A stretch of DNA of 40,249 bases, taken from contig NZ_MWXA01000010.1 of the NCBI RefSeq assembly GCF_002259795.1, forward strand, positions 1-40,249. Reading direction: 5' to 3'. Position 1 is the first letter of the stretch. Every line of letters starts with the position of its first letter. The position numbers and the translations under genes are program-made. The stretch comes from Bifidobacterium aquikefiri. Its GTDB lineage: Bacteria; Actinomycetota; Actinomycetes; Actinomycetales; Bifidobacteriaceae. The notes beneath the pieces were generated by a model. The model did no database searches. It had not been told where the DNA came from and was given only the letters and a program-made list of their open reading frames with translations. Shown in pieces: positions 2,697-36,382 of the stretch.

Positions 2697-2868
2697 TTGC
2701 AAAGCAGCGCCGAGGCGGCCATTCTGGAATTCAATTTCCATGCCAATGCAGCGATACGTATATGTCAAGCAGCACATTGCCCTCTGCGAAATCTTGATGT
2801 ACGAAACCTTCATTCAATTCGCGATGCCTAGGCTTGGACCGAATATAGATTGAAATTCAGGAGGCATG

Positions 2869-3720
2869 ATGAACATAACCGTTCTTGGTACGGGCATTAT
2901 GGGCGGTGGCATAGCCAAAGTTCTCGCTGCTCAGGAATTCAACGTAACAGCTTGGAATCGTACGATTTCGCATGCTGCACACTTGAAGAAAGACTCGGTT
3001 CATATTGAACCAGACATCAGGAAAGCAGTTTCACAGGCGGATATCATTGCCATCGTCGTATTCGACGCAGACAGTGTAATGAATGTTCTTGAGCAGGCAA
3101 GCGCTTCAGCACCCTCAGACGCAATCTGGGTGCAGATGTCGACGATTGGCAAACAGGGTGCTCGAAAGGTTGATGAATACGCGAAAAATCACGGCTTGAA
3201 CGTTATCGAAACCATGATGATGGGCAGCAAGGATCAGGCCAATTCATCACAACTGGTGCTTATGGGCGGGGGCAGTCAGACACTGTTTGATCGGGCGAAT
3301 CCTTTCACCAAGGCAGTATCAAAGAAACTCGTATTCTGCGGTCCGCATCTTGGAGATGGAACTGCCGTTAAGCTTGCCTGTAATCTCTGGCTTGGAAGCA
3401 TCACCGTTGCAGCCAGCCAATCGTTGAAAGTTCTCGAACAGCAACATGTCGATCCTCGTCTCTTCTTGAATGTGATAGACGGCGGCACTACGGATTCTCC
3501 ATATGCACACCTCAAGGGTGCGAAAATCCTCGCTCATGACTATTCAGCACAATTTGAGGTTTCGGCACTCGAAAAGGATCTTGGTCTGATGAAGGATGTG
3601 ATGCAAGACATCGGTTTTCGCAACGATCTTCTCACCACCGTGCTCGGCCTCTACACCGAATCTGACAAGAACGGCCACACCCATGATGACGTAAGCGCTG
3701 TCGCGACAACTTTCGACTGA
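2869..3720 (+). CDS. NAD(P)-dependent dehydrogenase of the beta-hydroxyacid / 6-phosphogluconate dehydrogenase-like family
   Basis: A 283-residue protein. The N-terminus NITVLGTGIMGGGIAKVL is the family's Rossmann motif (GxGxMGxxxA). Further on are a variant of the D-x-S-T motif (VQMSTIGKQGARK), a substrate-loop equivalent (MMMGSKDQANS), the active-site lysine region (GTAVKLACNLWLG) and the C-terminal K-D-L motif (ALEKDLGLMKDV). The family (3-hydroxyisobutyrate dehydrogenase, tartronate semialdehyde reductase, GLYR) oxidises or reduces beta-hydroxyacids; the true substrate is not readable from sequence. The family glycine pair in 'PVSGG' is replaced by MGSKD, so it may be a non-canonical imine- or aldehyde-reductase type. 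The ATG at 2869 is preferred over the ATG at 2866 because AGGAGG (2859-2864) is only 1 bp from the latter and 4 bp from the former. Confidence 0.85.
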   Translation: MNITVLGTGIMGGGIAKVLAAQEFNVTAWNRTISHAAHLKKDSVHIEPDIRKAVSQADIIAIVVFDADSVMNVLEQASASAPSDAIWVQMSTIGKQGARKVDEYAKNHGLNVIETMMMGSKDQANSSQLVLMGGGSQTLFDRANPFTKAVSKKLVFCGPHLGDGTAVKLACNLWLGSITVAASQSLKVLEQQHVDPRLFLNVIDGGTTDSPYAHLKGAKILAHDYSAQFEVSALEKDLGLMKDVMQDIGFRNDLLTTVLGLYTESDKNGHTHDDVSAVATTFD

Positions 3721-3769: not shown

Positions 3770-3890
3770 CGAGATTTTGAGTTTTGTGGCAATTTCAAAG
3801 TATCAATGGAAGAAATCATTGTTTTGCAGTCGATATTCCGCAAAAAACAGCTCTGCATATTTTGAAATTGCCACAAAACTCAAAATATCG
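3770..3890. repeat. Foldback element, copy 1
   Basis: Two 34-bp arms (3770-3803 and 3857-3890) are inverted repeats with two mismatches. The central 16-bp core GAGTTTTGTGGCAATT occurs at 3779-3794 and its complement at 3866-3881, so the core-to-core span is 103 bp. It lies 49 bp downstream of the dehydrogenase stop, between two convergent genes. The same core recurs at 13401 and 36028 with nearly the same span. There is no ORF inside. A 3-bp CAA flanks both ends of the long arms, too short to call a target duplication. Confidence 0.85.
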
Positions 3891-3968: not shown

Positions 3969-4352
3969 TCAGTTGAGAATCTGCTGTACCGAACCGCGAA
4001 TCTTTGAGGTGGCATCATCAACGGCCGAGCTGGCATTCTTCACAGTCTCGTTTACAGCGGAAGTCGCATTGTTCAACGACTCATTTACCGCCTTGCGAAC
4101 CTGCTTGTTACCGCGATCGATGGTCTTCTGCCAATCCTTTGGGATTTCAACCTTCGTTTCACGGCAATACTTGAAGTAGAGGAACAGTGCGATACTCGCA
4201 ATCACAGCTATGGCACAGAACAGCTTCATGTGCCCGTGCTGAGACTCTTCCTCATCACCCCAACCGTAGGTGTCATTGGTTTGCTCGGAATCTTTGAAGT
4301 CTTCCTCGTCGTCGCGGTTTTTATTCTTGTTTTTATTCTTGTCGCTTGCCAT
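3969..4352 (-). CDS. Hypothetical single-pass membrane protein with acidic/basic N-terminus and helical tail
   Basis: A 127-residue protein I do not recognise. It has three visible parts: a very hydrophilic head with KNKNKNKN encoded by a 12-bp tandem repeat, then acidic DDEEDF; one membrane segment at about residues 42-60 (MKLFCAIAVIASIALFLYF); and an Ala/Asn/Val-rich tail with heptad-like units AVNESLNNATSAVNETV and NASSAVDDATSK, probably an amphipathic helix or coiled coil. The start chosen is the ATG at 4352, with AAGGGGG seven bases upstream; a second ATG at 4358 sits directly against that site and is less likely. The tail resembles the LEA-like protein at 9876-10133 in style, so a role in envelope stress is possible but not shown. 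Confidence 0.7.
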   Translation of the reverse strand: MASDKNKNKNKNRDDEEDFKDSEQTNDTYGWGDEEESQHGHMKLFCAIAVIASIALFLYFKYCRETKVEIPKDWQKTIDRGNKQVRKAVNESLNNATSAVNETVKNASSAVDDATSKIRGSVQQILN

Positions 4353-4521
4353 AGTCATCCCCCTTGGGCACAAGGTTACTCTCATCTTACGGATTTCAGC
4401 TGTTGCACACTCTTAGAGAAATAATTTTCCCCAACCCTGTTACGAATGATATGGAGCACAGGGCATCATAAGCCGCGTGTATGTCAGATCGCGCATTCAG
4501 ATCATGACGCGCTCGAGAGCT

Positions 4522-5235: not shown

Positions 5236-7839
5236 TCAATGTCTGGACGCTTCGACTGTTTCATTGTTCAGATGCCTGTGCAGATACTTGCCGGTGATGC
5301 TATGTGGGTTGGAAGCTATTTCCTCCGGTGTACCGGATGCCACAATTCGTCCGCCCGCCTGCCCTCCGCCGGGGCCCATATCGATTACATAATCGGCATT
5401 GGCAATCATGTCAAGGTCATGCTCGATGAACACAACCGTCGCACCTTTGTCGATAAGGCGTTGCAGAACCTTGAGCAGGGTTCGCACGTCAAGCGGATGC
5501 AGTCCTGTTGTCGGCTCGTCAAGTATGAACATCGTGCTCGTGTGCCGCTTGCCCAGTTCATTGGCGAGCTTGAGACGCTGTGCCTCACCACCGGAAAGCG
5601 AGGGAGTATCCTCACCGAGCTTTACATATCCAAGTCCCAGATCGCTCAGGGTAGCGAGCGCCTTGTAGATACGCCGTAGACTTGCGTGCGGAATCGAAGC
5701 ATCAGTTGCAGTCCGATCTTCGACACCACGATCAGCAAAGAGTGGCAGCGCATCATCCACTCCCATATTGAGCAGCTCAGGCAGCGTAAGGCTTTGAATA
5801 CCTTCAGCCGATGCAAGCTTCACATGAATATCCCCAACATTCGGTCTGTAACGAGAGCCCTGACACACTGGACAAGTGATCGTTACATCAGGCAGGAACT
5901 GAATATCCAGGCTGATTTGACCCGTTCCATCGCACTCCGGGCAACGCAGCGAACCGGTGTTATACGAAAAGTCGGAAAGCTTAAGCTTGCGCTTGCGAGC
6001 ATCGTCGGTCGCCGCGAACACGCGTCTCAATGCGTCCATGACACTTGTATATGTTGCAACCGTTGAACGCACATTGATACCGATAGGCGTTGAATCAACG
6101 ACTCGAACGCGTGTGATTTCAGCATTGTCAAGGCTGTTCACATGTGCCGGTAACTTTTGGGCGTCGGCGAGCGCTCGCAGACCGGACACCAGTGACTCAA
6201 GCACCATCGTGGTTTTGCCAGATCCGGATACGCCGGTGACGGCGGTCATTCTGCCTTTCGGCACTTGCACATCGAGGGCATGCACCGTGTGAATCGGTGA
6301 AGTCTTCATATGAATGCATGAGCCGCTCTGCAAGTCAACTGTGTTGCGATCTCTGCACATTACCGGCTCGGAACCGTCCAGGAAACCACCAATTCGCGAT
6401 ATTGGGTCTGCAGCGACTTCACTCGGCGTTCCTTGAGCTATCACGGTACCACCCAATCGACCCGCACCACACCCCATCTCAATGAGGTGGTCGACTCGCT
6501 TCAAGACACCGGTATCGTGATCAACCAGCACAACCGAATTGCCATCCGCCAGCAAGTCGCGCATCACTCCCATTAGACCCTCGATATTGCTAGGATGCAG
6601 ACCTGTTGATGGCTCATCAAGCACATACAGTGCGCCGGTCGTCTCGTTGCGGACTGCACGCGAAAGTTGTGCGCGCTGACGTTCGCCTGTTGAGAGTGAT
6701 GCGGAAGAGCGATCAAGGGTCAAATATCCTAGGCCCAGCTGCACCAACCTTCGGCTCATCAGCATGAATGCATCAACGAGATCCTGCGCCATCATTCGCA
6801 TGGAAGTCGGCACAGTGTCAGGAATCGTCCGGACCCACTGCTGAATTTTCGTGAGAGGCCACGCGGTCACTTCTGCCAGATTGTGTTCTTCGATCCTCGG
6901 TGCTCGAGCCAATTCACTGAGCCTTGTACCCTCGCACGTTGGACATTGTCGCTCAACCACAAACTTAGTTACCTTTGCCAGGCGCTTCTCATCATTGGCT
7001 CGCTTGAGTTCGTCCAACACCGTGAGACGTGCATTGCGAAATGTGAAATCCAGCTCGTGCACGCCCTTGACCGAAGTGAAGGTAATATGCTTCTTCTCTT
7101 CAGGACCGTTGAAAACTATGTCTTTTTCACGATCTGTCAACTGGTTCCACGGCACGTCAATGCGAACGCCGAATTCGTGCACTATTGCAGGCTGCACATT
7201 GAATCCGAATGTGCGCCAAGGGACCACTGCGCCTTCATCAATGGTCAACGTGGGATCGGGAACAATCGTCGAGTCATCGACATCCCGAACGATTCCAGTT
7301 CCCTGGCATGTCGGGCATGCCCCGAGAGAGTTGAACGCCAGTTCCTCGGCACTCGGCGCATGTATCGGTTTGCCGCACACCTCGCAGTTGAATGCGATCT
7401 CTGCGGCTACCTTGAGTGTGGGTGCGTTGTAATGTCCGTTCGGGCAACGATGAGATGCCAAGCGCGAGAACATCAGACGCAGGACGTTCAGCAGTTCCGT
7501 CGAAGTTCCAAAGGTCGAACGCACTCCTCCAATACCTGGTCGCTGGCGCAATGCCAAGGCTGGCGGAATGTATTTCACCGAATCCACTTGTGGCTTTGCG
7601 GTCTGCGTCATGCGTCTGCGCGTGTATGTCGAAAGCGCATCCAGATAGCGTCGTGCCCCTTCCGCATAGAGAATCCCCAAGGCAAGTGAAGATTTTCCAG
7701 AGCCCGAGACTCCCGCAATTCCGACAAGCTGGTGCAGCGGAATCGAGAGATCAATATTTTTAAGATTATGGACGCGCGCACCATGGATTTCTATCGCTGA
7801 TGGTTCTCGCCTTGCTGCACAATTATTCGATTCTGTCAT
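5236..7839 (-). CDS. UvrA2-like ABC ATPase (excinuclease UvrA paralogue without UvrB-binding domain)
   Basis: An 867-residue protein with two ABC ATPase cassettes. The first Walker A is GVSGSGKSS (residues 43-51) with signature [15 protein letters not shown] and Walker [14 protein letters not shown]. The second Walker A is GVSGSGKTT with signature [16 protein letters not shown] and Walker [14 protein letters not shown]. Zinc-binding pairs CEVCGKP / CPTCQGTG and CPECDGTG / CPVCQGSRY are present. Between HRCPNGH and CEVCG there are only about 20 residues, where UvrA1 has a UvrB-interaction domain of about 100 residues. That shortening and the total length (UvrA1 is about 940) mark it as a UvrA2/DrrC type, linked in other bacteria to tolerance of DNA-binding drugs rather than UvrB-dependent repair. 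The start is ATG 7839, with only a weak ribosome-binding site. The upstream region carries a symmetric twin-operator element. Confidence 0.9.
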
Positions 7840-7940: not shown

Positions 7941-8043
7941 GTTCATTGTGAACTCCACAAAGTAGAGAGGCCGAATAACAGCGAAATCACGTCGATTGAA
8001 TGCGGAAAATGTGCTTCTATACTTTGCGAAGTTCACAATGAAC
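7941..8043. repeat. 103-bp inverted-repeat element with twin palindromes; diverged foldback copy or twin operator
   Basis: The 24-bp arms 7941-7964 and 8020-8043 are inverted repeats with two mismatches. Each arm starts with the palindrome GTTCATTGTGAAC (GTTCA-N3-TGAAC), an operator-like shape, with centres 90 bp apart. The region lies between the divergent uvrA-like gene (start 7839) and aldehyde dehydrogenase gene (start 8320). The total length equals that of the foldback core at 3779-3881; aligned without gaps, the two share TTGTG, CAAAGTA, GTCGAT and CACAA at identical offsets. The rest of the 480-bp intergenic region (7840-8319) holds no gene I can support. Confidence 0.75.
7996..8023 (+). 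promoter_or_regulatory. Candidate promoter for the aldehyde dehydrogenase gene
   Basis: TTGAAT (7996-8001) and TATACT (8018-8023) are separated by 16 bp. Transcription would start near 8030, directly on the right GTTCA-N3-TGAAC palindrome (8031-8043), so a repressor bound there would block it. The leader would be long (about 290 nt), which weakens the case. Confidence 0.35.
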
Positions 8044-8319: not shown

Positions 8320-9711
8320 ATGGCATATCAATCAATTAATCCGTATACCGGCGAACTTATTGAATCGTTCGATACCGCAACTGACGATGAGGTCAGATGC
8401 GCCATCACCAAGGCAGATGAAGCATTCCAGTCCTGGAAGGAAACATCGTTCGCAAAACGTGCAGAGATTCTGGCGAACATTGCCAGAATTCTTCGCGAGC
8501 GTCACACCGACTATGCGCGCATCCTCACCACCGACATGGGTAAGCTCATCGGCGAAGCAGAGGCAGAGGTCGAACTTACCGCAAAGATGCTCGACTATTA
8601 CGTTGAGCATGGTGAGGAAGAGCTTCAGCCTCGCACGATCCATGTGGAAGGTTTCCCCGATGGCAAGGTCAAGCTTGATTACGAACCACTTGGCGTGCTT
8701 TATATGGTCGAACCTTGGAACTTCCCGTATTACCAGATCGTTCGAGTCGCAGCGCCACAGCTCATTGCTGGAAATACGCTGCTACTCAAGCATGCTTCGA
8801 ACGTGCCTCGTTCAGCCGTGGCCTTCGAAAAGCTGTTCAAGGAGGCGGGCCTGCCTGATGGCGTTTTCACCAATCTGTTTGCGTCACACGACCAGAACGA
8901 ACTCATTCTCGCCGATCCACGTGTCAAGGGCGTGGCCCTTACCGGTAGTGAAGGCGCTGGCGCGGCGATAGCATCGACGGCTGGCAAGTATCTCAAGAAG
9001 AGCACCCTCGAACTCGGTGGTTCCGATCCATTCATCATTCTCGAAGATGCGAATCTGGACAAAGCTGTCAATTGGGCGGTTATCGGTCGCCATTGGAATG
9101 GCGGTCAGGTCTGTGTGTCTTCGAAGCGCATCATCGTCGTCGATTCCCTCTACGACGAGTTCCTTGAGAAATACCGCGCCGGTGTCGCCAAGCTCAGGAT
9201 GGGAGATCCTCTTGATCCAAGTACGACGCTTGCTCCGCTCTCAACGCAGTCGGCCGTTGATATTCTGGACAAGCAGGTCAAGGAGGCCATAAAGCATGGA
9301 GCCCATGCAGAACGGCTCGGAGATCCTGTTCCGCAAACGGGCGCCTTCTACCAGCCCACCATCCTGACCGGCATCACACCCGATAATCCAGCGTATACGA
9401 CCGAAATGTTCGGACCGGTGAGCTCGATCTACCGTGTGAAGGACGAAGCTGAGGCAATCAAGGTTGCCAATGGAACACCATTCGGACTCGGCGGATCCGT
9501 GTTCACCGAGGATTCCGCCCGCGCCTGGGATGTCTCCCGCAAGATCACGACCGGCATGATGTTCATCAACCATCCGACCGGTGTGAAAGCTGATATTCCA
9601 TTCGGCGGCGTGAACCGTTCTGGATATGGCCACGAGCTGATCGATCTTGGCATTCACGAATTCGTGAACATCAAGGTCATAGCCGAACCGAGGATCGACG
9701 ACGCTTTCTAA
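8320..9711 (+). CDS. NAD(P)-dependent aldehyde dehydrogenase, succinate-semialdehyde dehydrogenase-like
   Basis: A 463-residue cytoplasmic enzyme of the ALDH superfamily. Visible catalytic elements are PWNFPYY with Asn134, the coenzyme loop LTGSEGAG, the general base in LELGGSDPF (Glu231) and the nucleophile in GGQVCVSSKR (Cys265). The C-terminal EMFGPVSSIYRV and PFGGVNRSGYG motifs are intact. The start INPYTGELIESF and the short N-terminus (superfamily usually 450-500) resemble the Sad/GabD-like succinate-semialdehyde dehydrogenases. The substrate is a family-based guess, because no GABA transaminase lies nearby. It would oxidise an aldehyde to its acid with NAD+ or NADP+. AAGGAAGAG precedes the ATG. 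It appears monocistronic, with a hairpin 30 bp after the stop. Confidence 0.88.
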   Translation: MAYQSINPYTGELIESFDTATDDEVRCAITKADEAFQSWKETSFAKRAEILANIARILRERHTDYARILTTDMGKLIGEAEAEVELTAKMLDYYVEHGEEELQPRTIHVEGFPDGKVKLDYEPLGVLYMVEPWNFPYYQIVRVAAPQLIAGNTLLLKHASNVPRSAVAFEKLFKEAGLPDGVFTNLFASHDQNELILADPRVKGVALTGSEGAGAAIASTAGKYLKKSTLELGGSDPFIILEDANLDKAVNWAVIGRHWNGGQVCVSSKRIIVVDSLYDEFLEKYRAGVAKLRMGDPLDPSTTLAPLSTQSAVDILDKQVKEAIKHGAHAERLGDPVPQTGAFYQPTILTGITPDNPAYTTEMFGPVSSIYRVKDEAEAIKVANGTPFGLGGSVFTEDSARAWDVSRKITTGMMFINHPTGVKADIPFGGVNRSGYGHELIDLGIHEFVNIKVIAEPRIDDAF

Positions 9712-13274: not shown

Positions 13275-13392
13275 CAGCATCGTCCCTATTTCGTTATGAA
13301 TCACGCAAATCTTCACATTCTCCCGCACCATCGAATTGAAAATTGGCCCAAAAATATGTGAAAGCCGACCACGAAATTCGCGTTGGACAACA

Positions 13393-13512
13393 AGATTTCC
13401 GAGTTTTGTGGCAATTGCACGGTATAGATCGCTAAGATCCGCTTGTTTCGATACACCATTTCAACAATTCTGCGCGTTTATGCTGTGCAATTGTCACAAA
13501 ACTCGGAAATCT
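13393..13512. repeat. Foldback element, copy 2
   Basis: The arms 13393-13420 and 13485-13512 (28 bp each) are inverted repeats with one mismatch. The 16-bp core GAGTTTTGTGGCAATT is at 13401-13416 and its complement (one change) at 13489-13504, so the core-to-core span is 104 bp. It begins 45 bp downstream of the hspR stop. Its right 41 bp (13465-13505) match copy 3 (36091-36131) at 35 of 41 positions. The rest of the 442-bp gap 13115-13556 holds only the helicase leader. Confidence 0.85.
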
Positions 13513-13556
13513 CATCTGAAACGCACCGGAGTAAGAGCAAGCAACCCGCAAATCTC

Positions 13557-14120
13557 TTAGAATTCTTGATCCGAACCCCAAATAATCAGAGAACGCGACG
13601 AACCTAGCTCATCCGTCTCGTCAAAAGCAACGAGCTCCTCATCATTACGATGCGTTTCGTGACGCCACAGGCGCGCACGCTCGGAACGCTGCACTTCAAT
13701 AACCTCGCCATTGCGCCCAGCAGCGAATACGCTCGAACCGCTGGGTACACGCATGCGTCTTATTTCACGTCGGAGCTGGCGATTTTCCTCTTGCAAGGCA
13801 AGAATACGCGTGACTCCCGCCAGATTAATCGACTCGTCCTGACTTAAGTGCTGCGCCTGACATAACCTATCAATGTCGCGAAGTGAATATCGACGAGCAC
13901 CGCCCCGCGTGCGCTTCGGTACCACCAAACCCAAACGGTCATACTGTCGCAAAGTCTGCGGGTGAATTTTCGCCAGTGTCGCGACCTTGCCAACCGTGAA
14001 CACGGGCAGATCGCTGTCGAATCCGGAATCCTCTACATTGTCAAGATCAAGTCTTCCATCAACGAGTGAGTGGGCGCAGATGATATACATCTGTCGCAAG
14101 TCTCGCGTTATCTTCTGCAC
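13557..14120 (-). CDS. hspR: Heat-shock repressor HspR (MerR family)
   Basis: A 187-residue DNA-binding protein. The winged helix-turn-helix reads FTVGKVATLAKIHPQTLRQY then DRLGLVVPKRTRGGARRYS, the hallmark HspR sequence, starting at about residue 41. A leucine- and Arg-rich helix (ALQEENRQLRREIRRMR) follows for dimerisation. HspR usually has a short N-terminus before the helix-turn-helix; here a roughly 40-residue extension is predicted. The start GTG 14120 is supported by GGGAGGTGA with good spacing. It is the last gene of the dnaK operon and should repress it through the HAIR site at 18106-18126 with DnaK as co-repressor (family knowledge). The C-terminus is acidic and variable. Confidence 0.93.
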   Translation of the reverse strand: MQKITRDLRQMYIICAHSLVDGRLDLDNVEDSGFDSDLPVFTVGKVATLAKIHPQTLRQYDRLGLVVPKRTRGGARRYSLRDIDRLCQAQHLSQDESINLAGVTRILALQEENRQLRREIRRMRVPSGSSVFAAGRNGEVIEVQRSERARLWRHETHRNDEELVAFDETDELGSSRSLIIWGSDQEF

Positions 14121-18222: not shown

Positions 18223-18252
18223 ATGACATGTGCATTGACTGGGCCTGCTGTA

Positions 18253-19089
18253 TCACCCCTTCACAGCGCCGGCCATCACACCTTTGATGATGTACTTTTG
18301 GCAGATCAGATAGAAAACGACAATGGGAATAATCGCCAGCACCAGGCAGCCCATCATGGCTCCCATGTCGACCGAACCATACCCTCCACGAAGATACTGG
18401 ATTGCTATGGGCATCGTCTTGTATTTGCTCATATCCAATGTCAGATATGGGAGGAGGAAGTCATTCCATATCCACATGGTCTGCAGAATAGCTACGGAAA
18501 TGATCGAAGGTCGCATTATCGGAACAACGATCTGGAAGAAGATTCGAGGAACGCTCGCTCCATCGATCATGGCCGACTCCTCTAACTCCTGAGGTATTGA
18601 CTTGATGACACCGGTGAAGATGAACACTGACAAGCCAGCGCCAAAACCGAGATAGATGATCCATAGGCCCCACGGAGTGTTGAGACCAAGCATGTCGGAG
18701 ATCTTCGAGAGGGTGAACATCACCATCTGGAATGGAACAATCATATTGAACAGGAAGAGAATGTACAGTGTCTTGGCAGATGCATTTCCCACACGAACGA
18801 TCCACCAGGCGCACATTGACGTGCAGATCAGGATGAGCACTACCGATCCTACCGTTATGACGACTGTCCAGACAAAGCTGGCCAACAGGTTGGTCTGCTC
18901 AATGCCATTGATGTAGTTGGTGAATCCCACGAAGGTTTTCTTGAAGGGAATTGAGAATGCATTGACGGTAATGTATGTCTTGTCTTTGAACGAGTTCAAA
19001 AGGACGAGAAAGAGCGGGAAAATCCATACGATCGAGATAACCGTAAACAGCAGGGTCCACAACCAACCGTGCTTGACTTTGTCATTCAT
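18253..19089 (-). CDS. Sugar ABC transporter permease, MalG type (module 1)
   Basis: A 278-residue inner-membrane protein with six predicted membrane helices; the first is LLFTVISIVWIFPLFLVLL. The cytoplasmic EAA loop that docks the ATPase reads LEESAMIDGASVPRIFFQIV. It is of the carbohydrate-uptake-1 (MalG/MsmG) family and pairs with the MalF-type permease, whose gene overlaps it by 4 bp (ATGA), so translation is coupled. From the IPQELEE motif to the C-terminus it differs from the module 2 paralogue at only 6 of 114 residues, while the N-terminal third is less conserved. The substrate is probably an oligosaccharide of glucose, inferred from nearby glycosidases. Confidence 0.9.
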   Translation of the reverse strand: MNDKVKHGWLWTLLFTVISIVWIFPLFLVLLNSFKDKTYITVNAFSIPFKKTFVGFTNYINGIEQTNLLASFVWTVVITVGSVVLILICTSMCAWWIVRVGNASAKTLYILFLFNMIVPFQMVMFTLSKISDMLGLNTPWGLWIIYLGFGAGLSVFIFTGVIKSIPQELEESAMIDGASVPRIFFQIVVPIMRPSIISVAILQTMWIWNDFLLPYLTLDMSKYKTMPIAIQYLRGGYGSVDMGAMMGCLVLAIIPIVVFYLICQKYIIKGVMAGAVKG

Positions 19090-19940
19090 GCTGCCACTTC
19101 CTTACTGGTAGTCAGGCGATTTTGAATAAGCACTATGGCGCCAACGATAAGGAAGAACACAACTGCCTTCGCCTGACCGACGCCTTCAAATCCGATTCGC
19201 CCATAGAACGTTCGATAGATGTTCAGTGCCAACAATTCAGATGTGTTTCCTGGCGCACCGTTCGTCAATGCGAGATTCTGATCGAATAGTTTGAAACCAT
19301 TGGTGACTGTGAGGAACGTGCACACAGTAATCGATGGCATCATCAAAGGCAACGTGACTTTGAACAGCGTCTGCGTTTTCGAAGCACCATCAACTGCAGC
19401 AGCCTCCAGAACATCGCCCGGCAGACTCTGCAATCCGGCGATATAAATGATCATCATGTATCCAATCTGCTGCCACGAAACGAGAATCACGATTCCCCAA
19501 AACCCATACGTTCCCGAGAAGGTGATGGACCTGCCCCACTTGGCGAGCACACCATTGATGAGTAGAAGCCAAATATAACCAAGAATGATGCCACCTATGA
19601 GGTTGGGCATGAAGAACACCGAGCGGAATAGACTCGAACCGCGTATCGACTTGGTCAGGAAATATGCAATGGCGAATCCAAAGACATTCACGATGATTGT
19701 CGTAATGATTGCGAATGCAATGGTTCTCCAAAGCGCATTGACAAACTCGGGATCGCTGAACACTCCTCGATAGTTTCGCAATCCAACCCACCTTGAATTG
19801 GTTACCGTGGAGAACTTGGTGAAACTCAGGTAAATACCCATAATAAAGGGAACTACAAATCCAATGATAAAAGCAGCAAATGTGGGAAGGACAAATAATG
19901 CCCACCACTTTCGCACTGCTTTTCCTGCCATCGTTATCAT
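19086..19940 (-). CDS. Sugar ABC transporter permease, MalF type (module 1)
   Basis: A 284-residue inner-membrane protein with six predicted helices. Conserved parts include PTFAAFIIGFVVPFIMGIYL near the N-terminus and the EAA loop VLEAAAVDGASKTQTLFKVT. It forms the translocation pore with the MalG-type partner. The start chosen is ATG 19940; the frame stays open to 19988, but those codons include the Shine-Dalgarno-like GAGGAGGAAG, about 13 bp upstream of the ATG, so the spacing is longer than usual. The module 2 homologue shows the same arrangement. It is first in a two-gene leftward operon, with a TTGACA promoter overlapped by a LacI-type operator. Confidence 0.9.
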   Translation of the reverse strand: MITMAGKAVRKWWALFVLPTFAAFIIGFVVPFIMGIYLSFTKFSTVTNSRWVGLRNYRGVFSDPEFVNALWRTIAFAIITTIIVNVFGFAIAYFLTKSIRGSSLFRSVFFMPNLIGGIILGYIWLLLINGVLAKWGRSITFSGTYGFWGIVILVSWQQIGYMMIIYIAGLQSLPGDVLEAAAVDGASKTQTLFKVTLPLMMPSITVCTFLTVTNGFKLFDQNLALTNGAPGNTSELLALNIYRTFYGRIGFEGVGQAKAVVFFLIVGAIVLIQNRLTTSKEVAA

Positions 19941-20062
19941 AAATCGCTCACTTCCTCCTCGTTGAGAAAATCCCAGAATGAATTCCACGCGTGTTCTGGA
20001 GTGAAGAAAACAGCAGAAATATCGTTATTGACACATCTGTCAAGGAACCCAAACCCAAGAAA

Positions 20063-20091
20063 AAAATAACAAAATTTCATAAAAATGTCAA
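20063..20091 (-). promoter_or_regulatory. Promoter of permease operon 1
   Basis: On the minus strand a perfect TTGACA (20086-20091) is followed after 17 bp by TATTTT (20063-20068). Module 2 has the same -35 and spacing at 26933-26961. Confidence 0.75.
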
Positions 20092-20100
20092 ACGCTTGCA
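20086..20100. promoter_or_regulatory. LacI-type operator 1a (TGTCAAACGCTTGCA)
   Basis: An imperfect palindrome with a central CG, the usual shape for LacI/GalR operators. Its first six bases are the complement of the permease -35 box, so binding would block RNA polymerase. The module 2 counterpart TGTCAAACGCTGTCA is at 26956-26970. Likely bound by either LacI protein of the island. Confidence 0.65.
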
Positions 20101-20237
20101 GCCATCATGAACCAGTGTTTATATCGTTAGCGCTCACATTGCCCCAAGTCCAAACGTTCATATCAGCGATCTCACCCTACCCCAGCTTCTGGGATCTCAC
20201 TATTTGGACAATAGATAATCTGATGCCAGAAAAAATA

Positions 20238-20276
20238 TTGCAAGCGCTGTCATCAATAATTATTGGAAAATATAGT
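20238..20276 (+). promoter_or_regulatory. LacI-type operator 1b and promoter of binding-protein gene 1
   Basis: TTGCAAGCGCTGTCA (20238-20252) is an operator-like palindrome with a central CG; TATAGT (20271-20276) is a -10 candidate 33 bp after its start. The module 2 region has ATGCAAGCGCAGTCA at 27110 with TATCAT 34 bp after its start. The operator would overlap the -35 region. A further site-like TTAGCGCTCA occurs near 20127. The rest of this 521-bp intergenic region has no gene. Confidence 0.6.
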
Positions 20277-20461
20277 GTTAAGCCTCATGAAGACCACACA
20301 TACACAACAAGCAATTCCATTGCAAAAGATTGCAGCTTGATTTAATGAAAAACTACAGCTATCGTTTGCATTGAAACGAAGGCAAGGAGGCTTTCGTTCT
20401 GGATTGCGAAAAATACACAATGTCATTTGGGGAATTTCGCACCTTAGGGGAGGGTCATTAC

Positions 20462-21799
20462 ATGAAAATCGTAAAAAAGGTTCTTACGGCAGCAGTTGCC
20501 GTCACCATGATCTCAAGCATGGCAGCATGCGGCAGCAGTTCCGATAGCTCAGATTCAGCAGGATCCATATATTTCCTCAATAACAAACCGGAAATCGCCA
20601 ACAGCATGAAGGCACTGGCAAAGGAATACACCAAGGAGACTGGCGTCAAATTCACTGTTGAGACCGCTGCCTCGCAAACTTACGAGCAGACTCTGAAATC
20701 CGAACTGTCAAAAAGTCAACCTCCTACCCTATTCCAAGTGCTAGGTCAGGTTGGTCTGGAGAACTGGAAAGACTACGCTGCCAACATGAGCGATACTGAA
20801 ATGTACAAGCAGCTCACCGACAAGTCATTGGCGCTGAAGCTCAATGGCAGCAGTGAGGTGCAGGCCGTTCCTGTGGTTAGCGAAACCTACGGCATCATCT
20901 ACCGCAAGGATCTGCTGCAGAAGTACTTTGAGATGCCAGGAGCCTCGATCACAGATGTCAAGGACATCAACAGCTTTAGCGCCTTAAAAACAGTCGCAGA
21001 TCAAATTCAGGCAAATAAGTCGAAGCTCGGCCTCAAGGGAGCCTTCACCTCGATGGGATTCGATGCTTCGACAAGCTGGCGTTGGAACACGCATCTTGCC
21101 AGCATTCCCTTGGCCTATGAATTTGCCAAGGACAAAGTAACCAAGCAACCTGCCACGATCAAGGGAACATATCTGAAACAGTTCAAGGCCATCACAGATC
21201 TGTATATCAAAGATTCCACCGTCAAGGCATCTGAACTGAGTGGAAAGACCATGAACGATGCCCTATCAGATATCAACACAGGTGCGGCGGTATTCTTCCA
21301 AAATGGCTCATGGGCATGGCCAGACTTGCAATCCGGTGGTCTCAAGGCTGATCAGATTGGAGTTCTGCCAATCTACATGGGCATTCCTGGGGAAACGAAT
21401 TATGGAATGTCTACAGGTTCAGAAACATTCTGGACGGTGAACAAACAGGCACCAGAAGCTTCTCAGGTCGCAACCAAGAAATTCCTGAAGTGGCTCATCA
21501 CTTCCGACTATGGTCGCAAGACATGGGCAGATACCATGGGCTTCACAACATCATTCAAGACCTTCACCGGTAAATACGAAACCGACAATCCCATCATGAA
21601 GGCGGCCGAGGAATATCAGAAAGAGGGAAAGAAGAATGTCAACTGGGCGTTCCTTTACGACCCAAGTGACGAATACAAGACCAATCTCAGTGATTCCATG
21701 CTCCAGTATGTTCAGGGTACGGGCAACTGGGAAAGCGTAAAGACTGCGTTCGTCAACGGCTGGGCCACAGAATACAAGACGGCCCAAGAGAATCAATAA
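20462..21799 (+). CDS. Extracellular sugar-binding lipoprotein of ABC transporter (module 1)
   Basis: A 445-residue family 1 solute-binding protein. The lipoprotein signal is MKIVKKVLTAAVAVTM followed by lipobox SMAAC, with lipid-modified Cys23. The mature part has the MalE-like pattern: IYFLNNKPEIANSMKALAKE, PTLFQVLGQVGLENWKDYA, ETYGIIYRKDLL and ETFWTVNKQAPEASQ. It captures a sugar outside the cell and delivers it to the two permeases encoded divergently. ATG 20462 is chosen, with GGGGAGGG seven bases upstream and the signal peptide starting there. It is a close paralogue of the protein at 27351-28685. No ATPase gene is linked. Confidence 0.93.
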   Translation: MKIVKKVLTAAVAVTMISSMAACGSSSDSSDSAGSIYFLNNKPEIANSMKALAKEYTKETGVKFTVETAASQTYEQTLKSELSKSQPPTLFQVLGQVGLENWKDYAANMSDTEMYKQLTDKSLALKLNGSSEVQAVPVVSETYGIIYRKDLLQKYFEMPGASITDVKDINSFSALKTVADQIQANKSKLGLKGAFTSMGFDASTSWRWNTHLASIPLAYEFAKDKVTKQPATIKGTYLKQFKAITDLYIKDSTVKASELSGKTMNDALSDINTGAAVFFQNGSWAWPDLQSGGLKADQIGVLPIYMGIPGETNYGMSTGSETFWTVNKQAPEASQVATKKFLKWLITSDYGRKTWADTMGFTTSFKTFTGKYETDNPIMKAAEEYQKEGKKNVNWAFLYDPSDEYKTNLSDSMLQYVQGTGNWESVKTAFVNGWATEYKTAQENQ

Positions 21800-25073: not shown

Positions 25074-25079
25074 TTGAAA

Positions 25080-25916
25080 TCATCCCTTGACTGCGCCTGC
25101 CATGACACCTTTGATTATGTATTTCTGACAGACAATATAGAATACAACAATCGGAACTATAGCCAAAACCAGGCATCCCATCATGGCACCCATATCTACC
25201 GAGCCATAGCCACCCTTAAGATACTGAATGGCGATGGGCATGGTCTTGTACTTGCTCATGTCCAAGGTCAGATAGGGAAGAAGGAAGTCGTTCCAGATCC
25301 ACATGGTTTGTAGAATCGCAACGGAAATAATCGAAGGACGCATGATTGGCACCACAATCTCGAAGAAGATTCGGGGCACGCTGGCGCCATCAATCATCGC
25401 CGCCTCTTCCAGTTCTTGCGGAATGGATTTGACCACACCGGTAAATATGAACACGGCAAGACCGGCACCGAATCCAAGATAAAGCACCCATAGACCCCAT
25501 GGCGTGTTGAGACTGAGCATATCCGCAATCTTGGAAAGAGTGAACATCACCATCTGGAATGGAACGATCATATTAAACAGGAACAGGAGATACAGAGTTT
25601 TAGCGGCGGCATTGTCCACTCGAACAATCCACCAGGCACACATGGATGTGCAGAGCAGAATCAGTGCGACAGAACCGACCGTCACAACCACAGTCCAGCC
25701 AAAGCTCTCTATGAGGTTGGTGCGTTCAACGCCACGCGTGTAATTGCTCATGCCGACGAATGCTTTTCCGAGCGGAATGGAAAAGGCATTTTGCGATATG
25801 TACGTCTTGTCCTTGAACGAATTGATGAGCACAAGAACTATCGGAAATATCCAAATCAGCGAAATCGCTGCAAATAGGGTGGCCCATAGCCCAGAATGCT
25901 TCATTCTTTCACTCAT
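25080..25916 (-). CDS. Sugar ABC transporter permease, MalG type (module 2)
   Basis: A 278-residue, six-helix permease. The EAA loop reads LEEAAMIDGASVPRIFFEIV. Its length and C-terminal 114 residues are almost those of the module 1 paralogue (108 of 114 identical), whereas residues 1-60 show many changes. At DNA level third positions differ widely, so the duplication is old and the protein is under purifying selection. It overlaps the MalF-type gene by 4 bp and is second in the operon. Confidence 0.9.
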   Translation of the reverse strand: MSERMKHSGLWATLFAAISLIWIFPIVLVLINSFKDKTYISQNAFSIPLGKAFVGMSNYTRGVERTNLIESFGWTVVVTVGSVALILLCTSMCAWWIVRVDNAAAKTLYLLFLFNMIVPFQMVMFTLSKIADMLSLNTPWGLWVLYLGFGAGLAVFIFTGVVKSIPQELEEAAMIDGASVPRIFFEIVVPIMRPSIISVAILQTMWIWNDFLLPYLTLDMSKYKTMPIAIQYLKGGYGSVDMGAMMGCLVLAIVPIVVFYIVCQKYIIKGVMAGAVKG

Positions 25917-26767
25917 GCCGTCACCTCCTTGCTGGTGGTCAGGCGATTCTGAATCAGTACGATTGCTGCAACGATTATGAAGAACACCACTGCCTTGGCC
26001 TGTCCAACACCTTCGAATCCAACACGTCCATAGAACGTTCGATATATGTTCAAAGCCAACAGCTCTGAATTATTCGATGGGGCACCGTTAGTAAGTGCAA
26101 GATTCTGGTCGAAAAGCTTAAAGCCGTTGGTAACTGTCAGGAATGAACACACGGTGATGGAAGGCATCATCAAGGGGATGATCACCTGAAACATCGTTTG
26201 GCTCCCATTGGCACCATCAACGGATGATGCCTCGATCACATCACCGGGCATACTTTGCAATCCAGCGATATAGATGATCATCATGTATCCAATCTGTTGC
26301 CAGGATACAAGCAGCACCATTCCCCAGAAACCATAGGTTCCCGAGAAGGTTATCGAGCGACCCCAATATGAGAGAACTCCATTCAGCAGCAGCAGCCATA
26401 TGTATCCGAGGACGATACCGCCAATCAGATTTGGCATGAAGAAGACCGAACGGAACAGATTCGAGCCCTTGAGTGTCTTGGTAAGCATATAAGCAATCGA
26501 GAAACCAACGACATTGACTATTATCGTTGTAACAACTGTGAACGCCACAGTAAGAATGAGTGCATGGATGAATTCCTTGTCACTGAATACCCCGCTGAAG
26601 TTTCGCAGTCCAACCCATCTGGCATTGGTTACCGTTGTGAATTTTGTAAAGCTGAGGTAGATTCCCATCACGAACGGAATAAGAAAACCTATGACGAAGG
26701 CAGCAAATGTTGGAAGCGCAAAAACGCCCCACCATTTACGTATCGCCTTGCCAACCATTGTTATCAT
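25913..26767 (-). CDS. Sugar ABC transporter permease, MalF type (module 2)
   Basis: A 284-residue membrane protein, the paralogue of the module 1 MalF-type permease and of equal length. EAA loop: VIEASSVDGANGSQTMFQVI. ATG 26767 is used, with an AGGAGGAG stretch about 15 bp before it, as in module 1; an ATG three codons later (26758) is also possible. It pairs with the MalG-type protein of module 2. Transcription starts in the intergenic region upstream, where a TTGACA -35 box overlaps an operator. Confidence 0.9.
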   Translation of the reverse strand: MITMVGKAIRKWWGVFALPTFAAFVIGFLIPFVMGIYLSFTKFTTVTNARWVGLRNFSGVFSDKEFIHALILTVAFTVVTTIIVNVVGFSIAYMLTKTLKGSNLFRSVFFMPNLIGGIVLGYIWLLLLNGVLSYWGRSITFSGTYGFWGMVLLVSWQQIGYMMIIYIAGLQSMPGDVIEASSVDGANGSQTMFQVIIPLMMPSITVCSFLTVTNGFKLFDQNLALTNGAPSNNSELLALNIYRTFYGRVGFEGVGQAKAVVFFIIVAAIVLIQNRLTTSKEVTA

Positions 26768-26932
26768 TGTGATCCCACTTTCTCCTCCTTGAGAAATATC
26801 TATGAATACCTCTGCGGATTTCAACAGCATATGCAAGGCAAAAGCCCAACATGGATCTCTCCACGCACACAGTCATCATTGATCTTTCGAGCCTGTGGGC
26901 AGTGTTGAGAAATCACGCGGAATATTTTTTAC

Positions 26933-26961
26933 AACATAACCAATATTACTAAATTTGTCAA
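26933..26961 (-). promoter_or_regulatory. Promoter of permease operon 2
   Basis: TTGACA (minus strand, 26956-26961), a 17-bp spacer and TATGTT (26933-26938). Same spacing as in module 1. Confidence 0.75.
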
Positions 26962-26970
26962 ACGCTGTCA
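26956..26970. promoter_or_regulatory. LacI-type operator 2a (TGTCAAACGCTGTCA)
   Basis: Overlaps the permease -35 box. It is identical to operator 1a over TGTCAAACGCT, then differs. Operator pair spacing 2a to 2b (154 bp) is nearly that of 1a to 1b (152 bp). Confidence 0.65.
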
Positions 26971-27109
26971 TTAATGCAAAACATTGGATGTTGCAAAATC
27001 TGCGAGGAACCGGGCCTTTGCTTTCGCCCATTTTCTTTGGCTTTCTGATTGGTGCCCTGCATCATGTCTCAGTATTCGGACATGCGTACTCATTCTTTTT
27101 GACTATTAA

Positions 27110-27149
27110 TGCAAGCGCAGTCATACCCCGTAAAGCCCGAGATATCATA
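27110..27149 (+). promoter_or_regulatory. LacI-type operator 2b and promoter of binding-protein gene 2
   Basis: ATGCAAGCGCAGTCA (27110-27124) matches operator 1b at 13 of 15 positions. The -10 candidate TATCAT is at 27144-27149. The remainder of the 583-bp intergenic region (26768-27350) shows no gene. Confidence 0.6.
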
Positions 27150-27350
27150 GAATTCATCCGTCATGTCTATTTTCCAGCCAACCAATTGGCGGTCGGTGCA
27201 TGCAATATGCACAATCACAATTTATTCATAGTGTTAATATTTTGAGCCAATGCAGGCAGAGACGCTTCCCAGCAGAAAATCCATTCGTCGCAAATCCACT
27301 TTCATACCGGGTTCATGCGAGCACAAGAAAGCCAGAGAGAGGCACCATTT

Positions 27351-28685
27351 ATGAGAAACACGAACAAGATACTATCCGCATCACTGGCGACGATGTTGAT
27401 CATCGGAGCGGCAGGCTGTGGAGGATCCGACGACTCAGCCAAAGCGGGTGGCATCTATTATCTGAACAACAAGCCCGAGATAGCCGAAAGCATGAAGGCG
27501 TTGGCCAAGGAGTACACCGAGGAGACCGGGGTTGCCTTCAACGTTCAGACAGCGGCATCCGGGACCTATCAGCAATCCTTGAAATCCGAGCTCTCCAAGA
27601 ACCAGCCACCGACGCTGTTCCAGGTCCTTGGGCAGGTTGGCTTGGATACATGGAAGGACTACGCAGGTGACATGAGCGACACAGAAATTTACAAACAGCT
27701 CAATGATCCCAAGCTTGCATTGAAGTCGGACGACGACAGTGAGGTTCTGGCCGTTCCAGTCGTTACCGAGACCTATGGCATCATCTATCGCAAAGACTTG
27801 CTCCAAAAGTACTTTGACATGTCTGGAGCAAGCGTCACCTCTGTAGAGGAAATCGATAATTTCAATACTCTCAAGACCGTTGCCGAAGAGATTCAAGGCA
27901 ATAAAGACGCGCTTGGTCTCAAGGGAGCATTCGCCTCCATGGGATTCGATCCATCGACGATGTGGCGCTGGAGCATTCATCTGGCAAACATTCCACTCGC
28001 CAACGAATTCGAAAAGGATTCCATCACCAAGCAACCAGCGACCATACACGGGACATATCTGAAGCAGTTCAAGAACATCTCCGATCTCTACATTCAGAAC
28101 ACCACCGTCAAGGCAACGGAACTCAGCGGAAAAACGATGGACGACGCACTTTCTGACATCAATTCCGGCGAAGCGGTCTTCTTCCAGAATGGATCATGGG
28201 CGTGGCCCGATCTGGTCTCGGGAGGCCTGGAGGCCGAGCAGGTTGGCGTCCTGCCGATATACACCGGGGTCCCAGATGAAGAGAACCAGGGAATAGCAAC
28301 AGGATCCGAAACCTTCTGGTGCGTGAACAAGCAAGCTTCCGAAGAATCGCAGAAGGCGACCAAGGACTTCCTGAAATGGCTCATCACATCCGACAAGGGT
28401 CGTGAGACATGGTCGAAAACCATGGGCTTTACCACTCCTTTCAAGACCTTCACCGGAGAATATGCAACAGACAACCCGATCGTCCAGGCTGCCAACGATT
28501 ACAACGAAGCTGGAAAGCAGAATGTGCCTTGGGCATTCCTCTATATTCCAACCGAGGACTGGAAGACCAATCTCGGCAATTCGCTCCTTGAGTATGCCCA
28601 AGGCACCGGCGACTGGAACGCAGTGAAGAACTCCTTCGTTGATGGATGGGCTTCAGAATATGAAATCGCCCAATCCAACAAATAG
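27351..28685 (+). CDS. Extracellular sugar-binding lipoprotein of ABC transporter (module 2)
   Basis: A 444-residue family 1 solute-binding protein. The signal peptide MRNTNKILSASLATMLII ends in lipobox GAAGC, with Cys23 lipid-modified. Mature motifs IYYLNNKPEIAESMKALAKE, PTLFQVLGQVGLDTWKDYA and ETYGIIYRKDLL match the module 1 paralogue, while differences concentrate in the middle and near the end (FAWL-type region LYIPTEDWKTN against LYDPSDEYKTN). ATG 27351 is chosen over a frame start at 27315 because AGAGG precedes it by 8 bp and the signal peptide begins there. It delivers the sugar to permease pair 2, and the enzyme to split it follows on the same strand. Confidence 0.93.
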   Translation: MRNTNKILSASLATMLIIGAAGCGGSDDSAKAGGIYYLNNKPEIAESMKALAKEYTEETGVAFNVQTAASGTYQQSLKSELSKNQPPTLFQVLGQVGLDTWKDYAGDMSDTEIYKQLNDPKLALKSDDDSEVLAVPVVTETYGIIYRKDLLQKYFDMSGASVTSVEEIDNFNTLKTVAEEIQGNKDALGLKGAFASMGFDPSTMWRWSIHLANIPLANEFEKDSITKQPATIHGTYLKQFKNISDLYIQNTTVKATELSGKTMDDALSDINSGEAVFFQNGSWAWPDLVSGGLEAEQVGVLPIYTGVPDEENQGIATGSETFWCVNKQASEESQKATKDFLKWLITSDKGRETWSKTMGFTTPFKTFTGEYATDNPIVQAANDYNEAGKQNVPWAFLYIPTEDWKTNLGNSLLEYAQGTGDWNAVKNSFVDGWASEYEIAQSNK

Positions 28686-35123: not shown

Positions 35124-36026
35124 ATGAAAGCAACAAACTATTCATCCTCATCGTCCGAAGAAACTCAAACGCTCTCTTCCAGCAGATCGGAAGTCTCCGA
35201 CCCCCTGCAAAGAGAGGCACCTGAACATAACAGTCACACCGTTGGCAACAACGACACCATCGCTACGCTGCTCAATCGCAGGTCAATCCGTCGTTTTGAG
35301 CCAAAACCAATATCCAAGGAAACGTCAGATCTACTCGAGCGAGTCGCACAGCGTGCCGCGAGCAGCAACTTTCTGAATGCCTGGTCCGCTTTGAGAATCA
35401 CCGATCCCGCCATTAAGCTGGAGTTGTCCGACATCGGTAACCAGAGCTACATCGCCGAAGCTCCCCTGCTATATGTATTCATCCTCGACCAGCGCCGCAA
35501 TGCGACAATTGCAGCCAAACAAGGTATCGACATCACGTCTGAAGACTTGGCCCTCAAGACCAGCTACCGCTTTATTCAGGCTCAGAACGATGCTGTTCTT
35601 GCACTTCACGCGATGGAGACTGCGGCTGAGTCTTTGGGACTTGGCTGCGTGATTCTTGGCTCTATCCTGAACGATCTCAATAGACTCATCACCATCCTGC
35701 ACCTGCCAGAATTCACCTTCCCCGTACTCGGTCTTGCGATTGGTGAACCGGCACAGAAGCCGGCTTTGAAGCCGCGCATGCAACAATCCATGCAGTTCTT
35801 CGAAAATCAATACCCAACTGATTTTGATGATGATGAGTTTGCCCAATCACTCAAGAACTTTGATAATATTCTGCACCAATACTATGATTTGCGTCATGCT
35901 GACCGCCCAGTCGAGGCGTTCAGCTCTCAAATCGCGAAAAACGCATCAGCTAAGCCATCTAAGCTGAACGATATCGTCAGATTTGCCCCGAAACAGGGAT
36001 TCGACATCACTTCGGAAGTTAAGTAA
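35124..36026 (+). CDS. Nitroreductase family FMN-dependent oxidoreductase (NfsA/Frp-like)
   Basis: A 300-residue protein. LLNRRSIRRFEPKPIS (residues about 49-64) is the FMN phosphate site. The second flavin motif GLGCVILGSILND and the C-terminal LPVLGLAIGEP-like stretch (FPVLGLAIGEPAQKPALKPR) identify the NfsA/Frp group. An about 40-residue Ser/Thr-rich N-terminal tail precedes the fold and may be disordered. It uses NAD(P)H to reduce nitro-compounds or quinones, or may be an azo or flavin reductase. The ATG at 35124 lacks a clear ribosome-binding site, so the start is uncertain. The stop codon abuts a foldback element. Confidence 0.85.
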   Translation: MKATNYSSSSSEETQTLSSSRSEVSDPLQREAPEHNSHTVGNNDTIATLLNRRSIRRFEPKPISKETSDLLERVAQRAASSNFLNAWSALRITDPAIKLELSDIGNQSYIAEAPLLYVFILDQRRNATIAAKQGIDITSEDLALKTSYRFIQAQNDAVLALHAMETAAESLGLGCVILGSILNDLNRLITILHLPEFTFPVLGLAIGEPAQKPALKPRMQQSMQFFENQYPTDFDDDEFAQSLKNFDNILHQYYDLRHADRPVEAFSSQIAKNASAKPSKLNDIVRFAPKQGFDITSEVK

Positions 36027-36027
36027 C

Positions 36028-36130
36028 GAGTTTTGTTGCCTTTTCAACGTGCAAAGACCTCACAACGTTGAAAACATGACGCGTGAAAGCCAATTCTTGG
36101 CGTTTATGCCCCGCAATTGCCACAAAACTC
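36028..36130. repeat. Foldback element, copy 3
   Basis: Left core GAGTTTTGTTGCCTTT (36028-36043) and right core AATTGCCACAAAACTC (36115-36130) are imperfect inverted repeats spanning 103 bp. Inside, TTTTCAACGT (36041-36050) pairs perfectly with ACGTTGAAAA (36065-36074). It lies exactly between two convergent stop codons (TAA 36024-36026 plus strand; TAA 36134-36136 minus strand). Its right 41 bp match copy 2 at 35 of 41. Confidence 0.85.
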
Positions 36131-36133
36131 GAG

Positions 36134-36382
36134 TTACCACCGCGGTTTATAGCCTCGTTTGCGGGAACGGGGCTTTCGTGAGCGCTCAATGCTGTAATGT
36201 GGCAGCGTTGTCGCTGGATCTCGACTTGTCAGATGCCATGTTCGACAATATTCGCATTGATATACCCATAATCTCACCCCGCGGCTGACGAAGCTTTCGT
36301 CAGCCGCTCGCTCTGCCATGGCTTTATCGTGATACATGATCTTCGACGTGGTCTGGCATCGTTGTGGAGTGAAAAAGTGCAT
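36134..36382 (-). CDS. Small conserved-type protein with Y-x-C-x2-C-x2-WHLTS motif
   Basis: An 82-residue basic protein. The centre reads LWVYQCEYCRTWHLTSRDP: a C-x2-C pair followed by WHLT, a pattern I associate with short actinobacterial proteins of unknown function, possibly metal-binding. A helix-like A-rich stretch (DKAMAERAADESF) comes before and a strongly basic tail (SRKPRSRKRGYKPRW) after, suggesting nucleic-acid binding. The start is unsure: ATG 36382 or ATG 36337. It lies 26 bp after the aldo/keto reductase gene, so it may be on the same transcript. Confidence 0.7.
   Translation of the reverse strand: MHFFTPQRCQTTSKIMYHDKAMAERAADESFVSRGVRLWVYQCEYCRTWHLTSRDPATTLPHYSIERSRKPRSRKRGYKPRW

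Follow-up and report, generated by a model that had tools for sequence, protein, structure and literature searches.

An element family with several copies in one 40-kb window

The window analysed here is a stretch of 40,249 nucleotides from Bifidobacterium aquikefiri, in which an initial annotation had described a 16-bp core that, together with its complement, brackets 103, 104 and 103 bp at three places. All three pairs were confirmed at these positions, and a fourth element of the same superfamily lies between them. The elements and their neighbouring genes are listed here, with the arm types defined further below.

2866-3720, plus strand: gene upstream of copy 1, NAD-binding 3-hydroxyisobutyrate/6-phosphogluconate dehydrogenase-like (PF03446, PF14833)
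3770-3890, plus strand: copy 1, type A/A, 121 bp including the outer stem; cores 3779-3794 and 3866-3881, arms about 3770-3806 and 3854-3890
3969-4385, minus strand: convergent gene on the far side of copy 1, without a Pfam match
7941-8043, strand unassigned: fourth superfamily element, type C (GTTCATTGTGAAC core), between the divergent genes 5236-7839 (minus) and 8320-9711 (plus)
13392-13513, minus strand: copy 2, type A/A, core span 104 bp
13557-14120, minus strand: MerR-family regulator, 3' end about 44 bp from copy 2
35124-36026, plus strand: nitroreductase-family gene ending at copy 3
36019-36139, plus strand: copy 3, a hybrid with a B-type left arm (GAGTTTTGTTGCCTTTT) and an A-type right arm

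Measured against GAGTTTTGTGGCAATT, the left and right cores carry 0 and 0 mismatches in copy 1 (3779-3794 and 3866-3881, span 103), 0 and 1 in copy 2 (13401-13416 and 13489-13504, span 104) and 3 and 0 in copy 3 (36028-36043 and 36115-36130, span 103). A search of the window for the core with at most 3 mismatches returned 6 matches against a mean of 0.47 in 100 shuffles, and 0 of the 100 shuffles reached six. Complementarity around the core exceeds that first described, extending about 9 bp outside and 12 bp inside it. As the initial annotation had also reported, no copy is more than 50 bp away from a gene 3' end: copy 1 starts about 49 bp beyond the gene end at 3720, copy 2 lies about 44 bp from its gene, and copy 3 sits directly at the stop, its outer stem overlapping the stop codon of the gene at 35124-36026. 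The interiors of copy 1 and of copies 2 and 3 had been described as different; their sequences have indeed diverged, but they are not unrelated, all being diverged versions of one oriented interior, whose orientation in copy 2 is the reverse of that in copy 1. Folded as RNA, copy 1 reached -50.2 kcal/mol (z -11.1), a stability that tells little since any long palindrome would fold in this way.

An Rfam search of the window at the gathering score matched only rRNA and returned no family for the elements. The 5S rRNA and the end of the 23S rRNA occupy 39739-40249 on the minus strand. Elsewhere, the blocks at 18252-21150 and 25079-28036, about 6.8 kb apart, are similar (pieces 72-81% identical) and are apparently duplicated gene sets.

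Family size and anatomy

The expectation of many dispersed, fixed-length fold-back copies throughout the genome was borne out. In the whole 2.4-Mb genome that holds the window (G000; other G numbers denote relatives), the 14-mer core with at most 2 mismatches matched 88 times, against 11 for the reversed control, and most of the matches were in inverted pairs with starts 89-90 bp apart. With a covariance model trained on 35 copies, at least 116 matches were obtained in G000 among the 132 of 609 candidates scored; because most listed elements match on both strands, this corresponds to roughly 58 or more elements. At most 132 candidates were scored per genome, and the totals of three genomes may be lower bounds. 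Neither of the outcomes that had been named beforehand as contradicting such a family, only three copies or freely varying spans, was found; of the conditions named there, just the lack of a clean empty site was observed.

Each element of about 121 bp consists of two inverted 37-bp arms flanking an interior of about 47 bp, and alignment of 36 copies in both orientations yielded a 123-base consensus with an oriented interior. When left and right arms were compared in 127 elements of three species (127 of 135, the 8 hybrids being left out), agreement began about 9 bp outside the core and continued to about 28 bp within it. Positions 1-15 of the core hardly vary, with agreement of 0.84-1.00 between elements of one type and species, and AGTA at arm positions 21-24 is conserved; at arm positions 29-34 agreement between elements is just 0.25-0.39. 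Positions -3 to -1 and 17-20 are variable between elements and matched within an element, own-arm agreement exceeding cross-element agreement by 0.10 to 0.26. RNAalifold recovered 10 pairs only, in the core. In the complete G005 genome, 58 of the 73 exact A arms are matched by an exact partner; of the 15 that are not, 8 fall inside full-length model matches. G000 tolerates degraded and interrupted copies.

Arm types, shared interior and distribution

A fold-back scan of 39 G005 stretches found 50 fold-backs, 47 of which, on reading by eye, have one of three cores; behind the core there is usually a short variable stretch and then AAGTA. These are core A (GAGTTTTGCGGCAATT), core B (GAGTTTTGTTGCCTTTT, with intermediates) and core C (TTCATTGTGAACTT). 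G016 has type A and a fourth core, D (CAAGTTTTTGGCACTTG), while G015 and G024 have a fifth, E (GTTTGTGTAGGGATT), in an architecture like that of A-D. A Markov control of 420 kb contained zero fold-backs. On an interior profile built from the A1 set, which itself includes 5 B/A hybrids, 14 of 17 B, 17 of 19 C and 9 of 9 D interiors scored above the best of about 600 shuffles each; two of six E interiors did so, by 0.5 bits at most. Judged by these scores, arm types A to D appear to have one interior in common, and E only the architecture.

Two further fold-back families came to light. One, of 70-80 bp (GATAACTGCACTAAAAGGACAGC), is present in several copies per 100 kb at L210-L213 in G015 and L215-L218 in G024, and the other is a small family with a core like GTTGTGCTTTGGAAGT (L168:19603, L176:7380, L179:9362 and L181:10273), whose 30-nt loop equals the lower limit of the scan.

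Five species (G000, G005, G016, G015 and G024) carry the elements, and the exact patterns had no match in the 22 remaining genomes of the genus. The exact GTG form of the 14-mer occurred in 0 of the 26 other genomes of the genus, and its Y form (C or T), searched in 151 genomes of the family including all 27 of the genus, was confined to G000, G005 and G016, with zero matches for the reversed control. Exact-pattern searches placed C pairs in G000 and G005 only, D in G016 only and E in G015 and G024 only. No repeated fold-back of element size was seen in 100-kb samples of G002, G006, G010, G018, G021 and G023, the G021 sample containing one single 131-bp fold-back. The exact paired pattern and a protein query had zero matches in a genome-contig collection, copy 1 had no match in a plasmid collection, and a viral-contig collection likewise gave no match. 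In the open-access literature, no title or abstract was found that describes such a family in bifidobacteria, among MITEs/REPs, or with helical phasing.

Length is fixed and changes in steps of about 11 bp

The five arm types together supply 191 uninterrupted arm pairs. In 169 of them the length is no more than 2 bp from the mode for the type, and of the 22 others 21 are 9-12 bp off. For type A, 94 of 98 spans measure 102-105 bp, three 113-114 and one 154; for type B, 11 of 14 measure 102-104 and three 112-114; all eight A/B hybrids fall at 102-103, and type C has 14 of 19 at 101 and five at 111-113. Measured start to start, 19 of 20 D pairs are at 87-88 and one at 98, and the 32 E pairs comprise 7 at 86-88, 23 at 97-99 and two at 109-110 (79 of the 99 places in the E list of G024 were typed). 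The count covers spans of 50-180 bp in sampled DNA or 40-250 bp in lists; not included are three G000 copies into which other repeats intrude, at 235 bp (L011), 700 bp (L037) and 251 bp (L052). A binomial test of the 11-bp steps gave 1e-19, assuming an independence that shared descent breaks; the number of independent 11-bp events is uncertain, and the length classes may be partly common by descent. The long class forms no evident subfamily, because long elements were no more alike to one another than to short ones (0.676 vs 0.669). Descent of the 11-bp class from one ancestral subfamily of long elements is unsupported, on 12 long elements only.

Orthologous elements behave in the same way. 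Of the 35 orthologous pairs with matching arm types, 28 are equal in length and 34 differ by no more than 1 bp, the one exception being +11; among all 47 orthologous pairs, 41 agree within 1 bp. The orthologous elements L182:1472 (103 bp) and L129:6933 (114 bp) are inverted to each other relative to their flanks, and their alignment needs just one gap, of 11 nt. Two sites that must face the same side of duplex DNA would call for control of length at about 11 bp.

For comparison with these lengths, the distance from stop codon to element agreed within 1 bp in 26 of 51 gene-side comparisons, not all of them independent. Shifts of 10-13 bp look over-represented where the element-to-gene distance differs between species, and some of these have a remnant arm or tandem duplicate outside (e.g. 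L155:6717 and L145:18999).

Shared sites carry species-specific arms

The 43 G000 elements were mapped against about a third of G005, and 22 could be compared, 20 by both flanks and 2 (L001, L045) by one; L039, whose flanks lie kilobases apart in G005, and elements without a usable match were excluded. An element is present in both species at 19 of the 22 sites and not at the other 3, and since most mapped sites are common to both species the elements are old. One of the 3 sites without an element in G005 is occupied in G016, and none of the three showed a clean empty site with a clean junction. As for the window itself, copy 1, mapped by one flank, has a G005 element at its place whose interior matches in the inverted sense; copy 3 corresponds to an A/A element (GCG) of equal length at the syntenic place in G005, and no element was present at the syntenic place of copy 2 in G005.

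At these shared sites the arms are spelled differently. Elements of G005 and G016 have C instead of T at core position 9, in both arms. The 12 orthologous A/A sites provide 24 G005 arms, of which 23 have C at this position; every one of these is T in G000, and the last arm is T in both; in the comparison with G016, 16 of 16 arms have C there, where the same arms in G000 have 14 T and 2 C. Among sampled A arms, position 9 is T in 58 and C in 8 for G000, T in 1 and C in 70 for G005, and T in 0 and C in 56 for G016. For the ortholog tests, the DNA covered was about 0.43 Mb in G000, with short element loci in addition, 0.79 Mb in G005 and 0.395 Mb in G016. Because mean flank identity is 85.0 for G000-G005, 81.8 for G000-G016 and 81.1 for G005-G016, T at position 9 was probably derived in G000. 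The triplet outside the core is TTC in 26 of 86 cases in G000, TGC in 42 of 94 in G005 and TCC in 33 of 58 in G016.

A general mutation bias fails to explain the T in A arms, since the arms show the change in 23 of 23 cases, compared with 75 of 438 for GCGGC to GTGGC in aligned DNA away from elements. Deamination of m5C at GCNGC as the cause of the change from GCG to GTG was ruled out by the same count and by the undepleted state of GCGGC in G000 (observed/expected 1.01).

A proposed reading as paired binding sites in helical register

Our preferred reading, held tentatively and at a little under an even chance, is that each element offers two inverted binding sites, which a co-evolving putative protein reads on duplex DNA and in helical register. 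What the data show directly are the anatomy, the fixed length with its steps of about 11 bp, species-specific arms at shared sites, inversions, in-place changes of arm type and the 3' location; we infer the protein, its simultaneous contact with the two arms and selection for helical register. Such a sequence-specific protein would bind the conserved 16-bp core and the AGTATA of both arms, and would require the two arms at a fixed distance on the same helix face, so that the interior would be free to change sequence or to invert, and to change length only by about one helical turn. Its specificity would drift in each lineage and the sites would follow, which would account for the change of GCG to GTG seen in this species as well as for the remaining arm types. 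Correction of one arm by the other, with an inversion of the palindrome now and then, could keep the arms of an element alike at variable positions. The elements themselves would be of great age, passed on mainly by vertical descent and retained next to gene 3' ends. The putative protein might be a transposase, as in the REPIN/MITE class, or a factor of the host that loops or insulates DNA or acts on its topology; no candidate binding protein was found.

Dispersed sites that change together have a parallel in DNA uptake sequence dialects, in which many dispersed copies change spelling together in each lineage. The elements resemble these in their joint respelling, and differ in having only tens of sites, usually as an inverted pair at fixed distance.

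Turnover, copying and mobility

Arm type differs in 12 of 47 orthologous pairs, so something changes the elements in place. At L182:14891, G000 has a B element, G005 an A element and G016 a mixed one, their interiors having an identity of 0.81-0.84, and other in-place differences include B vs C vs A, C vs A, B vs D and B vs A, orientation and interior also changing. At sites orthologous by both flanks, 44 interior comparisons, limited to spans of 94-112 bp (the spacing and 47-pair arm-type counts have no such limit), exceeded the 99th percentile of unrelated pairs in direct orientation in 15 cases and inverted in 3, the rest being weak or without likeness. The interiors of G005 L134:7119 and G016 L200:8025, which by their flanks are non-orthologous, are 92% alike; this pair and the 12 type differences both point to copying or conversion between sites. 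Two type C elements on G005 contig C1 (837055-837155 and 843004-843104), 6 kb apart, are almost identical in the part shown, which suggests recent copying or segmental duplication. There are also nested copies: at L052 (about 2015-2286, G000 contig C17) the arms of a type A element enclose one of type C, and at L011 (1501-1735) a member of another palindromic family (GTCATCTCGAGCG..CGAGTCGAG) lies inside one type A element. This latter family is common in G000 (L165, L173, L174, L176, L178-L181).

These signs of turnover favour the main rival, REPIN-like mobility without RAYT. The elements would then be REPIN- or MITE-like and non-autonomous, without a host role; their arms would be conserved since intact copies are copied by a transposase in trans, and slow turnover would leave old sites, sometimes overwritten. 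The layout speaks for it as well: REPINs, according to PMC3116915, consist of two inverted 16-mers with a variable spacer, are extragenic and form lineage-specific classes, several per genome, and the elements likewise have an inverted pair of conserved 16-mers with a variable spacer, an extragenic location and several lineage-specific classes per genome. They differ from REPINs, for which a GI distance of 71 bp is given (PMC3116915), in their 37-bp arms, their A span of about 103 bp with steps of about 11 bp, and the lack of RAYT in the genus. The REPIN GTAG/CGTC tag is, on inspection, absent from the A core and the consensus; the E core contains GTAG. Prokaryotic MITEs, as characterised in PMC10969869, have terminal inverted repeats and are mostly intergenic, and terminal inverted repeats and short length are features of the elements too.

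The search for a mobilising partner or a trace of insertion weighs against this rival. The Y1 (RAYT) transposase domain PF01797 was found in 0 of 27 genomes of the genus and in 5 of 14 control genomes, and membership of the elements in a REPIN/RAYT system was rejected since the genus is without any Y1 transposase. Among 135 elements there was no clear signal of target-site duplication, the best excess over cross-element pairs being 0.10 (k=2, element boundary; many offsets tried); the flanking dinucleotide is identical on both sides in 17 of 135, and old duplications could have decayed. In complete G005, no inverted arm pair at 0.4-8 kb, as expected of a parent element, was present among the 15 unpaired of 73 exact A arms. 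Near-identical copies were absent among the 43 G000 A/B elements, and the best A/B interior identity was 0.75 in G000 (903 pairs), 0.82 in G005 and 0.82 in G016. Together with the 19 of 22 mapped sites that both species occupy, these results leave mobility without a host role somewhat unlikely.

Elements of about 100-130 bp are known from other bacteria as RUP, NEMIS/Correia and ERIC, and Correia elements are known to invert. Our elements are like these in size, terminal inverted repeats and mostly intergenic location; they differ in that no clear target duplication or parent IS was seen, in the one interior common to several arm types, and in arm sequence that changes species-wide at shared sites. 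The initial annotation had placed the family in the neighbourhood of MITE-like elements, and that neighbourhood, the MITE/REPIN class, proved apt. Its suggestion of a non-autonomous element in the usual sense fared worse, there being no clear target duplication, no parent among the exact A arms of complete G005, no Y1/RAYT in the 27 genomes of the genus, no near-identical copies among the 43 G000 A/B elements and no clean empty site.

Location beside gene 3' ends and transcript tests

Of 859 intergenic gaps, 144 separate convergent, 585 tandem and 130 divergent genes; the corresponding numbers for the 101 placed elements are 40, 58 and 3. Two further elements overlap called genes, and the median distance to a gene 3' end is 41 bp. 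These counts rest on simple in-house gene calls and include at least one G000 element twice, through the overlapping L182 and L183.

In a more far-reaching reading, the elements would be chromosome-wide DNA-pairing stations at gene 3' ends: inverted site pairs in register, with dedicated proteins that co-evolve with lineage dialects, several per cell. They would work for the host rather than for a transposon, for instance by insulating convergent genes from each other or stopping topological effects between them. We regard this as unlikely. BIMEs and DNA-gyrase or IHF sites offer a precedent as inverted palindromic units downstream of genes with a possible role in topology; by analogy the elements may be compared with them in their 3' palindromic placement, and would differ in their lineage-specific cores and their strict pairing and length.

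The location and the very stable fold of copy 1 also fit the proposal of a 3'-end RNA stabiliser made in the initial annotation. Read as an RNA element more broadly, a 3'-UTR hairpin would stabilise or process mRNA or bind an RNA-binding protein, compensatory change keeping the stem. Such change would fit the excess of own-arm over cross-element agreement at positions -3 to -1 and 17-20. Read on the transcript strand of elements between tandem genes, arm mismatches comprise 143 G.U and 106 A.C (p 0.022, orthologs not removed), which speaks for a role as RNA; this small excess is found mainly in the outer stem (60 vs 32), and the inner stem is without it (65 vs 61). The interior shows no preferred orientation to tandem transcription (25 sense, 34 antisense, p 0.30), interiors invert at shared sites, and spacing quantised at about 11 bp has no obvious meaning for an RNA loop, all of which count against the RNA reading and make it, in our estimate, decidedly doubtful. 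The layout of an intrinsic terminator, a GC-rich hairpin followed by a T run, was not seen, the arms ending in AATCTCG-like sequence; separate terminators beside elements were few, but the terminator rule detected few anywhere.

A mutational artefact, in which old insertions had their arms homogenised by palindrome correction and altered by a genome-wide C-to-T bias without selection, agrees with the arm-to-arm agreement at variable positions, the occasional inversion and the more AT-rich sampled DNA of G000 (GC 0.519 vs 0.540 and 0.561), and is very improbable given the different rates inside and outside the arms, the inability of correction within one element to synchronise dozens of loci, and a length held while sequence drifts.

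Implications

The paired-site reading itself has observations against it: the covariation of arms at the variable positions, which a pure DNA-site model does not require, the small G.U excess, the type changes in 12 of 47 orthologous pairs, the 92% pair and the toleration of degraded and interrupted copies. Small palindromic repeats are usually classed as dead mobile DNA. Here, shared sites, coordinated change at dozens of loci and length steps of about a helical turn point to DNA recognition by a protein evolving with its sites. Because three related species hold the same sites in different dialects, both the putative protein and the question of whether the elements serve the host are directly testable.
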